The notes beneath the pieces were generated by a model, which saw only the letters and a program-made list of their open reading frames with translations, was not told the DNA's origin and did no database searches. DNA of 64,000 nt, from assembly GCF_001180105.1 (NCBI RefSeq), contig NZ_CVSO01000002.1, positions 124,001 to 188,000 on the forward strand, read 5' to 3'. This document shows positions 10,748-12,439 of this stretch, one piece after another. Within the stretch, counting starts at the first letter, position 1. Each line of letters starts with the position of its first letter. This DNA comes from Candidatus Pelagibacter communis. Lineage in GTDB: Bacteria; Pseudomonadota; Alphaproteobacteria; Pelagibacterales; Pelagibacteraceae. The translations under genes and the position numbers were made by a program.

Positions 10748-11140
10748 ATGGAAATTTTTAAACCAATAAATGAAAAAAAAGCAAATTCAAAAGTTAAAAG
10801 AATTTTTAATGAAATTAAGAAAACTAGAAAAATTACTAAAATTCCAAATTTTTGGAAATCTATAGCACATAACCCACAACTTTTAGAGAGAACATGGAAT
10901 AATCTTAAACAAATTATGAAAGATGGTGCACTAGACTCAGTTACCAAAGAATTAATTTATGTTGCTGTATCAATTACAAATAGCTGCAGTTATTGTACTA
11001 GATCACATACTTTTGCTGCTAAAAAAAAGGGCGCATCTGACGAGATGATTAAAGAGATGATAGATGTAGTTGGTATTGCTAATCAAAACAATAAACTTGT
11101 TGAAGCGTATCAAGTTGAGGTAGATAAAATTTATAAATAA
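10748..11140 (+). CDS. Carboxymuconolactone decarboxylase family / AhpD-like peroxidase
   Basis: A 130-residue all-helical protein with the AhpD-type redox centre C80-S-Y-C83-x-x-x-H87 preceded by E68. Such proteins reduce peroxides or serve as thiol partners in antioxidant systems. A strong ribosome-binding site (GAGGGGG, 10738-10744) precedes the ATG, suggesting good expression. The SMR-type gene follows after 3 bases and is probably co-translated. There is no AhpC gene next to it, so its electron donor is not shown by context. Confidence 0.85.
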   Translation: MEIFKPINEKKANSKVKRIFNEIKKTRKITKIPNFWKSIAHNPQLLERTWNNLKQIMKDGALDSVTKELIYVAVSITNSCSYCTRSHTFAAKKKGASDEMIKEMIDVVGIANQNNKLVEAYQVEVDKIYK

Positions 11141-11143
11141 ACT

Positions 11144-11479
11144 ATGACGAATATTCTTGGATATGCATATCTTTTGTTAGCTGTAATATTAGGAATTACT
11201 TCTAATGGCTTTTTAAAAACTACTAATGGATTTACAAACCTTGTACCAACCGCAATGTGTATAATAACAATTGTTCTTTGTATATTTTTTCTAGCAAAAG
11301 CAATGATGACAATACCTGTTGGTTTTACTTACGCAACATATGGAGGTTTAACTATAACTGCCGTAACAATATTCGGAATATTGAAATATAATCAGGTTCC
11401 AAACATATACGGAATTATAGGTATTTCTTTGATTATAATTGGTGTGATACTGGTTAATTTTTTAGGCAAAACAAACTAA
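11144..11479 (+). CDS. SMR (EmrE/SugE-like) family membrane protein lacking the essential glutamate
   Basis: A 111-residue, four-helix protein that aligns end to end with small multidrug resistance transporters: Y7/Y9 and K25-x-x-N-G29-F30 match Y4/Y6, K22 and G26-F27 of EmrE, and IPVGFTYATYGG matches helix 3. However, the proton- and substrate-coupling Glu14 of EmrE aligns with Gly17 here, W63 aligns with Tyr, and the whole protein has no Asp or Glu. Proton antiport by the EmrE mechanism is therefore unlikely; it may be a channel, a subunit, or use another coupling. It follows the AhpD-like gene by 3 bases. Confidence 0.75.
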   Translation: MTNILGYAYLLLAVILGITSNGFLKTTNGFTNLVPTAMCIITIVLCIFFLAKAMMTIPVGFTYATYGGLTITAVTIFGILKYNQVPNIYGIIGISLIIIGVILVNFLGKTN

Positions 11480-11481
11480 AT

Positions 11482-11703
11482 TTATTTAGTAATCTTATCC
11501 ACAAAATTTTTAGTTATTGGACCAACTACCAAGGCAGCTACAATTGCAATAGGAAGACTAACTACCCAAGCTTTCAAAAATCTATTTATGTATTCACTAT
11601 CCATCCCTGTGTTAATGTACGTGATGATTAGTGTCATCATAAGGCTCATTCCAAAGCCCATGATTAAGATAAATAATAAATTAGAATATTTTTTTGGAAA
11701 CAT
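11482..11703 (-). CDS. DUF2798 family small membrane protein
   Basis: A 73-residue protein with two hydrophobic helices separated by a short loop (YINTGMDSEYINRFLKAW), ending in a basic VGPITKNFVDKITK tail. This matches the two-helix DUF2798 layout. Function unknown. It lies 18 bases downstream of another small membrane protein gene on the same strand, so both probably share a transcript with the DUF1330 gene upstream. It is convergent with the SMR-type gene, with only 2 bases between stops. Confidence 0.75.
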   Translation of the reverse strand: MFPKKYSNLLFILIMGFGMSLMMTLIITYINTGMDSEYINRFLKAWVVSLPIAIVAALVVGPITKNFVDKITK

Positions 11704-11721
11704 TCGATAATTTATTAATTT

Positions 11722-12138
11722 CTATACGTAAATTTTATCAGCTAATCCGTAACAAAGAACAGCGCTAATAATAACCAGAACTAATGGGGCATATATTCCA
11801 TCATTTCTAGTTTTCTCAGTCAAACCAGTTTTATCAATTTTTAAAGTATAAAAATTTGCACATAATATTGTGACATTAATTATAAAAACTAAATTAAAAA
11901 ATGCCCAAGTAGCATCTAAACCACCCGATCTTATGAAAGCGATATATATTGCCATTAAAACCATTGCAATCATGAACGAACCAGCAAATCTTGTTATTAA
12001 AGTAGCTGTTTTATCTACTCCTCTACCTTCAAGAAATTTTTGAGTTCCGAAAACCAATTGGAATGCGTAGCTTCCAACAATAATGAAATGAACTAAGTAT
12101 ATTATTAAGTAAAATATATTTCCAAACTTATCTATCAT
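11722..12138 (-). CDS. Hypothetical four-helix membrane protein
   Basis: A 138-residue protein with about four membrane spans (residues 8-30, 45-70, 75-97, 115-135). I do not recognise a family with confidence. A good Shine-Dalgarno (AAGGAG, 5 bases before the ATG on the minus strand) supports translation. It sits between a DUF1330 gene and a DUF2798 gene in one direction with gaps of 13 and 18 bases, so it is part of a three-gene transcript of small proteins. Confidence 0.7.
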   Translation of the reverse strand: MIDKFGNIFYLIIYLVHFIIVGSYAFQLVFGTQKFLEGRGVDKTATLITRFAGSFMIAMVLMAIYIAFIRSGGLDATWAFFNLVFIINVTILCANFYTLKIDKTGLTEKTRNDGIYAPLVLVIISAVLCYGLADKIYV

Positions 12139-12151
12139 GTTATCTCCTTTT

Positions 12152-12439
12152 TTATATCCCTTTAATAATTATTATATTACCTTCAGATCCCTTTTGGCGC
12201 AATTCCTTTAATGGCTTGTATAGGTCAGAGTTGTACCATTCTAACGCTTTTTCATAAGTTGGAAATTGAATAATTACATTTCTTGTGAAATCCCACTTTC
12301 CTTGCATTGATTTAAACTCTCCAGCTCTAACCAAGTACTTACCACCAAATTTTTTTACAGATTCAGGCACTGTTTCAGCATAAAGCTTAAAATTTTCTTT
12401 GTCTGTCATGTTGAGTTGAGCTATTAGGTAGCCGCTCAT
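12152..12439 (-). CDS. DUF1330 family protein
   Basis: A 95-residue protein with the DUF1330 ferredoxin-like pattern: GYLIAQLNMTD at the start, a GGKYLVRAGEF strand, a central VIIQFPTYEKALEWYNS segment and a short final strand. Members are small dimeric alpha/beta-barrel-type proteins of unknown function. First recognisable member of the minus-strand group running to 11482; a 29-codon membrane peptide ORF precedes it by 3 bases. Confidence 0.85.
   Translation of the reverse strand: MSGYLIAQLNMTDKENFKLYAETVPESVKKFGGKYLVRAGEFKSMQGKWDFTRNVIIQFPTYEKALEWYNSDLYKPLKELRQKGSEGNIIIIKGI

Follow-up and report, generated by a model that had tools for sequence, protein, structure and literature searches.

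The gene considered here lies in a stretch of 64,000 nucleotides from Candidatus Pelagibacter communis, hereafter the window, and reads from an ATG start to a TAA stop codon (Table 1). Its product is a member of the SMR family by descent and predicted fold: it matches the Pfam SMR profile PF00893 with 61 bits (cut-off 23.7), recovers the EmrE chains of the PDB in a sequence search (best E 7e-11) and, among its 23 NCBIfam matches at E<=1, scores best with the Qac models. Four helices are predicted (residues 2-26, 33-56, 59-82 and 88-110), and an AlphaFold2 monomer model (pLDDT 85, pTM 0.70) likewise has four helices, with Gdx-Clo (Z 15.8) and EmrE (Z 14.5) as its best structural matches; its other Foldseek and VIA matches, to non-SMR chains, are weak and of a generic helical kind. 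The translation contains neither Asp nor Glu, as the first-pass annotation had stated, and its only Lys, Arg or His residues are Lys25, Lys52, Lys81 and Lys109. The same annotation had placed Gly17 at the site of the central glutamate of the family and a tyrosine at that of Trp63; both assignments hold, with EmrE E14 aligned to Gly17 and EmrE W63 to Tyr66 (the 63 being EmrE numbering, the 17 that of the window protein). The AhpD/carboxymuconolactone-decarboxylase-like gene immediately upstream is probably co-transcribed with the SMR gene. Behind the latter, at 11482-12439 of the window, lie small DUF2798, membrane and DUF1330 genes; the content of this segment varies among close relatives, and in some of them (e.g. 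L034) SRAP and FkbM genes follow the SMR gene.

Table 1. Features of the SMR locus, in positions of the window
Feature	Position	Strand	Remark
AhpD/carboxymuconolactone-decarboxylase-like gene	10748..11140	+	ends 3 bp before SMR start
Glu-less SMR protein, type A	11144..11479	+	111 aa, ORF + Pfam + fold
Codon 17, GGA, Gly	11192..11194	+	central Glu site (EmrE E14)
Codon 21, AAT, Asn	11204..11206	+	EmrE T18 site
Codon 63, TAC, Tyr	11330..11332	+	Tyr switch (EmrE Y60)
Codon 66, TAT, Tyr	11339..11341	+	EmrE W63 site

Relatives were read from loci drawn from family, order, class and phylum samples, together with named single-cell and other genomes. The 172 unique SMR domains of the Pelagibacterales (SAR11), bacteria that are abundant in the ocean, fall into three residue classes at the EmrE E14 and W63 sites: type A with Gly and Tyr (113, including the window protein), type B with Gly and Phe (37), and a class with Glu and Trp (22). 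Here unique means not identical, near-copies remaining among the counted proteins; A is over-represented, as loci were picked by similarity to the window protein, and two short B fragments (L079 and L147) were dropped ahead of the count. A mixed combination occurs in none of the 172 domains: the Glu site is Gly in 150/150 A and B proteins (113/113 and 37/37, respectively) and Glu in 22/22 of the other SAR11 SMRs, and the W63 site is Tyr in 113/113 A and Phe in 37/37 B proteins. The nearest SMRs read outside the Pelagibacterales have Glu and Trp in 60/60 cases, a set made up of 28 unique proteins of other Alphaproteobacteria, 31 from 28 phylum-sample loci and one from a viral contig, and representing the part of the matches listed in the class and phylum searches that were read as loci. 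A viral origin was considered and rejected, the one viral contig match being 38% identical and carrying both Glu and Trp. Scored with an A+B profile, and among the matches listed, full-length A and B proteins reach 143-177 bits, two contig-truncated copies 90 and 104 bits, the Glu-bearing SAR11 proteins that we term C 110-126 bits, and SMRs outside the Pelagibacterales at most 92 bits. Conservation at position 17, which the first-pass annotation had put forward as a check, thus speaks clearly: Gly is found in every near relative read, Glu only in outgroup lineages, and a single aberrant sequence is ruled out by the 150 unique proteins from many assemblies. One homologue beside an A-type gene, at G196:C16:20643-20948, has one internal TAG and is the only interrupted A/B-like row among the matches listed.

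The Glu-less branch was found here only in the Pelagibacterales, where the A+B profile matches 87 of the 147 sampled genomes; G101 and G551 hold a canonical SMR only, leaving 85/147 genomes with A or B. With the sample limited to completeness >=90% and contamination <=5%, 82 of 105 genomes have A or B (84 profile matches less 2). The first-pass annotation had suggested a re-purposed SMR branch, and with it a phylogeny of the SAR11 SMRs. In a tree of 105 thinned rows, A and B form one clade (100/97), within which A (97/98) and B (99/97) are each recovered. Immediately below it come two SAR11 lineages with Glu, all within a SAR11 clade (100/99); this tree has few columns and flagged long branches, and is rooted at the midpoint. 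A repeat tree that left out eight trait columns and MdtI/J gave the same groups (SH-aLRT 92 for the A+B split, 95 for A, 97 for B and 96 for A+B+C). Such a topology fits a single origin of the Glu-to-Gly change inside SAR11, in the common ancestor of A and B. Closest to A+B on the tree are the C lineages (L126 and L203; L199-L202), which share with them a loop 3 of the KY.Q.PN type and, unlike them, keep Glu14 and Trp63.

One of these Glu-bearing sister genes, L199:4062-4397, lies inside a carnitine/gamma-butyrobetaine-type locus, next to genes for a GMC oxidoreductase, a TauD-type dioxygenase, BKACE, a carnitine-dehydrogenase-like protein (a match under the NCBIfam cut-off, 346.5 vs 414 bits) and an EamA transporter; the gamma-butyrobetaine label is based on a TauD domain together with the gene order reported in PMC12421898. 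In L200-L203, genes similar to those of the L199 locus in length and order are present. As excerpted, the 2025 study describes an Arctic SAR11 island with an SMR and genes for choline dehydrogenase, gamma-butyrobetaine dioxygenase, BKACE, carnitine dehydrogenase and DMT, and the excerpt does not mention the Glu (PMC12421898). The setting of L199 hints that the Glu-bearing sister SMR may transport quaternary amines.

The change at the Glu site reflects purifying selection and not decay. Its Gly codons are GGA 73, GGT 21, GGC 12 and GGG 7 in A, and GGA 16, GGT 12, GGC 3 and GGG 6 in B; the median dN/dS is 0.064 in A (294 pairs with dS 0.1-1, of 1378 pairs) and 0.108 in B (22 pairs with dS 0.1-1). 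With all four Gly codons in use, the residue fixed and dN/dS at about 0.06 in A, we take Gly to be under selection. The complete absence of acidic residues, which holds for 82/113 unique A proteins, is by itself weak evidence, because a 111-residue chain would be acid-free by chance with P ~0.05, given the D+E frequency of 28 alphaproteobacterial SMRs; what goes beyond chance is the invariant Gly at the Glu site in all 150 unique A and B proteins. A sequencing error, a decaying gene or a chance event could draw on this figure and on the single base that separates GAA from GGA, but the number of unique proteins and assemblies, the low dN/dS and the use of all four codons reduce the likelihood of such an explanation to almost nothing.

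The central Glu is described as invariant and essential in the SMR family (PMC9000954, in excerpt). In the same excerpt the EmrE pocket is lined by E14, T18, Y40 and L47, with T18 paired with Y40, and the Y60F mutant is dead, while W63F still transports non-aromatic substrates (PMC9000954). Along with the Glu, the positions of Thr18, Tyr40, Ser64 and the GXG motif have been remodelled in A and B. Asn occupies the T18 site in 97% of A and in all B, and the Y40 site is Ile/Met in A/B, so that the conserved Thr18-Tyr40 pair of the Qac subtype is replaced by Asn plus Ile/Met. The S64 site is Gly in 92% of A and Ala in B, Ser being lost in all B. The G67 site (Thr70 of the window protein) is Thr in A and Cys, Thr or rarely Ala in B; the TM3 GXG fulcrum accordingly reads GxT in A and GxC, GxT or rarely GxA in B, its second Gly gone. 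Since Ser64, which has been proposed to make a pivot hydrogen bond, and this second Gly are both missing, alternating access itself may be altered. The sites of Y60, K22, G90 and G97 are retained at 99-100% in A and B, the Tyr switch at the Y60 site in 100% of both; the TM4 glycines G90 and G97 are presumably those that pack the dimer. Where A and B have a rare Asp or Glu, it falls only on loop, helix-end or terminal sites (EmrE 25, 52, 53, 80, 84 and 105-108). The idea of a re-purposed branch is therefore well supported, given a Glu loss common to every A and B protein read, its fit to a single origin, the purifying selection and these further changes in the pocket.

We considered whether a second SMR could supply what A lacks. 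In G051 (99% complete) and G093 (97%), A is the sole SMR in a PF00893 search at E<=0.01, and therefore no Glu-bearing partner rescues A there; such a rescue is ruled out for these two genomes. The window genome, 78% complete, also has one PF00893 match. Among the 21 loci that hold both types, 17 are B-A tandems within 100 bp. The K/R bias is -2 to +1 in A and 0 to +1 in B, near zero as in dual-topology SMRs, with the same script returning -5 for E. coli MdtI and +6 for MdtJ. As the partners show no opposite Arg/Lys bias, a fixed-topology A/B heterodimer is not supported, and we set aside a paired SMR of fixed opposite topology.

The genes around A and B are diverse. For 112 unique A loci, the window uncounted, the labelled upstream neighbours are led by the AhpD-like gene (31), followed by B (19), PhnE (16), a ManC-type gene (11) and an epimerase (9); the tally takes the best labelled gene <=400 bp upstream, may skip a nearer unlabelled one, and draws on flanks that vary from about 1.5 to 10 kb. 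In 82/113 A genes, the gap to the first upstream ORF of at least 100 residues on the same strand is <=30 bp. Overall, neighbours of A and B include AhpD-like, PhnE, ManC, epimerase, MtnA, Liv-type permease and G3P-dehydrogenase-like/GlpK genes; because they differ so widely among loci, the neighbourhood names no substrate, and none of those identified points to quinones. A phosphonate function, suggested by PhnE directly upstream in 16/112 unique A loci and by the gene run at L106 described below, was set aside because the same A type follows ManC or other genes in sister loci, the cassette thus changing while A does not. A glycerol facilitator, an idea prompted by L217, where A stands between a G3P-dehydrogenase-like gene and GlpK, was likewise dropped because five genomes carrying A (G000, G051, G093, G003 and G012) have no GlpK match at E<=1e-60. 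At L106:481-4339, genes for a PepM-cytidylyltransferase fusion, a phosphonopyruvate-decarboxylase-like protein and an Fe-ADH stand directly before A, likely a SAR11 phosphonate-synthesis run. At L122:2013-4293, genes for an MTA-phosphorylase-like protein and MtnA precede B (4-bp overlap), with an aldolase-SDR fusion on the opposite strand, perhaps a methylthioribose shunt. In genus g4 (L252, L253 and L256-L274) a variable phosphate-acquisition stretch often starts right behind A, comprising a UgpB-type operon and DAGK, PlcP-like, Agt-like, PhoR and Pst genes, pieces of which come and go between genomes.

Set against the known members of the family, A agrees with the Qac-type SMRs such as EmrE in length, fold and number of helices (four), and in its Tyr switch, TM4 glycines and near-neutral charge bias, but has other residues in place of the central Glu, Trp63, GXG and the Thr18/Tyr40 pair, and mostly also of Ser64. 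Like the paired SMRs MdtI/MdtJ, A and B occur in tandem; unlike them, they have no opposite charge bias and both partners are devoid of the Glu. The exceptions to the central Glu that we found in print, in excerpts, are the lipid SMRs (PMC9574504) and YvaD of Bacillus, a paired SMR that also lost E14 (PMC2716321). YvaD is described there as being under very little selective pressure, whereas A and B are strongly conserved. ArnE and ArnF also lack the central Glu, the E. coli proteins having Ser (ArnE) and Ala (ArnF) at the site in a loose alignment; A and B instead have Gly with Tyr or Phe, and no general link to glycolipid genes. A and B are SMRs by descent and fold that, by their residues at the E14, Trp63 and GXG sites, stand outside the proton-coupled Gdx, Qac and polyamine subtypes.

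The first-pass annotation had argued that the classical proton/drug antiport cannot operate in the window protein. Support for this comes by analogy from EmrE, where replacement of E14 by anything except Asp abolishes both proton and substrate binding (PMC9860125, in excerpt), and we consider it very probable that proton-coupled cation antiport has been lost in A and B. As the best overall explanation, to which we give about an even chance, we propose that they constitute a selected Glu-less SMR branch acting as an uncoupled facilitator of a non-cationic substrate. The central proton- and cation-binding Glu would have been replaced once by Gly in the common ancestor, and Gly held since. A would still form an antiparallel, dual-topology dimer in which access alternates through the retained Tyr switch. 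As its membrane core has no carboxylate, A would bind neither proton nor cation, which would leave it an uncoupled facilitator, whether a uniporter or a lipid flippase. The substrate would be uncharged, zwitterionic or otherwise non-cationic, would move down its own gradient, and might be held by the neutral hydrogen-bonding groups of Asn21, Tyr66, Thr70 and Tyr63 in place of Glu, Thr and Trp. In the window lineage A would work alone as a homodimer; elsewhere, where A and B stand in tandem, the two may mix. We lean slightly less than evenly towards a small polar non-cationic solute as the substrate of this uncoupled transport, as opposed to a lipid or a non-transport role.

A flippase of lipids or lipid-linked sugars in the manner of ArnE/ArnF, possibly serving the non-phosphorus glycolipids of SAR11 under phosphate stress, is the first of the competing views to be weighed. 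The first-pass annotation had wondered about a channel or a lipid/quinone carrier, of which the lipid option would have a precedent in ArnE/F and finds no general genomic backing here. In lipid SMRs the Glu is frequently Asn, and their substrates are non-cationic lipids whose transport may not involve protons (PMC9574504, in excerpt). In genus g4, where A follows an epimerase gene, the ~20 kb fetched around it contain PlcP- and Agt-like genes in 13/21 loci and some DAGK, PhoR or Pst gene in 15/21, a count of 21 that leaves out a 22nd stretch (L254, where G114 has its second A copy); in shorter stretches a lipid-remodelling or phosphate-type gene lies <=4 kb from 14/115 A genes, and at L204 B follows a PAP2 phosphatase. 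The PlcP, Agt and DAGK labels combine Pfam domains, gene order and the SAR11 plcP-agt operon as published (PMC4796936 and PMC8231724, in excerpts). However, A and PlcP-Agt do not form one operon, since in loci free of other insertions a DAGK gene in inverted orientation lies between the two; 6/21 g4 loci show none of the PlcP, Agt, DAGK, PhoR or Pst genes; and 0/39 B genes have such a gene <=4 kb away. Across 105 genomes (>=90% complete, <=5% contaminated), both A/B and Agt occur in 47, A/B without Agt in 35, Agt without A/B in 10 and neither in 13, i.e. their presence is unlinked (Fisher P 0.34). PlcP and Agt matches are absent from the window genome (78% complete) and from G003 (99%), both of which carry A, and ArnE/F is absent among the 23 NCBIfam matches of A at E<=1, from a library that may or may not hold such models. 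A specific role in phosphate-stress glycolipid transport, with the genes near A in g4 but no co-occurrence, was rejected, and flippases at large appear unlikely.

It is rather less probable still that A and B do not transport at all but take part in the assembly, regulation or structure of membrane proteins encoded nearby, as a degenerate fold kept for helix packing. The loss of the pivot Ser64 and of the GXG fulcrum besides the Glu, the usual position of A right behind another ORF, and the adjoining genes for transporters (PhnE ahead of A and, around B, Liv-type permeases) would all suit this role, but the upstream partners change between clades while A and B stay constant, and the near-complete retention of the Tyr switch and TM4 glycines has no obvious purpose in a protein that is only a scaffold. 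Improbable, too, and more so, is that A and B still move cations, e.g. methylated amines, as uniporters driven by the membrane potential, with Asn and Tyr standing in for Glu. The carnitine/gamma-butyrobetaine-type setting of the Glu-bearing sister L199, with a similar island in the excerpt of PMC12421898, and the transport of non-aromatic cations by W63F EmrE (PMC9000954) lend it some plausibility; against it are the abolition of substrate binding by non-Asp replacements of EmrE E14 (PMC9860125) and a membrane core free of any carboxylate, and none of the A/B loci examined lies in an island of that type.

Returning to the uncoupled facilitator, we tentatively posit that a whole SMR branch was converted from a proton-driven cation antiporter to a facilitator that lacks the carboxylate, works uncoupled and takes neutral metabolites or lipids as its substrates. 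The accompanying path, from Glu/Thr/Tyr/Trp to Gly/Asn/Ile/Tyr-Phe with Glu-bearing relatives persisting in sister lineages, is offered with equal reserve. No description of a SAR11 branch of Glu-free SMRs turned up in a search of open-licence PMC papers. A strongly selected branch of this kind, together with Glu-bearing sisters in the same order, amounts to a natural experiment on the function of the SMR scaffold without proton coupling and on how the energetics of a transporter change.
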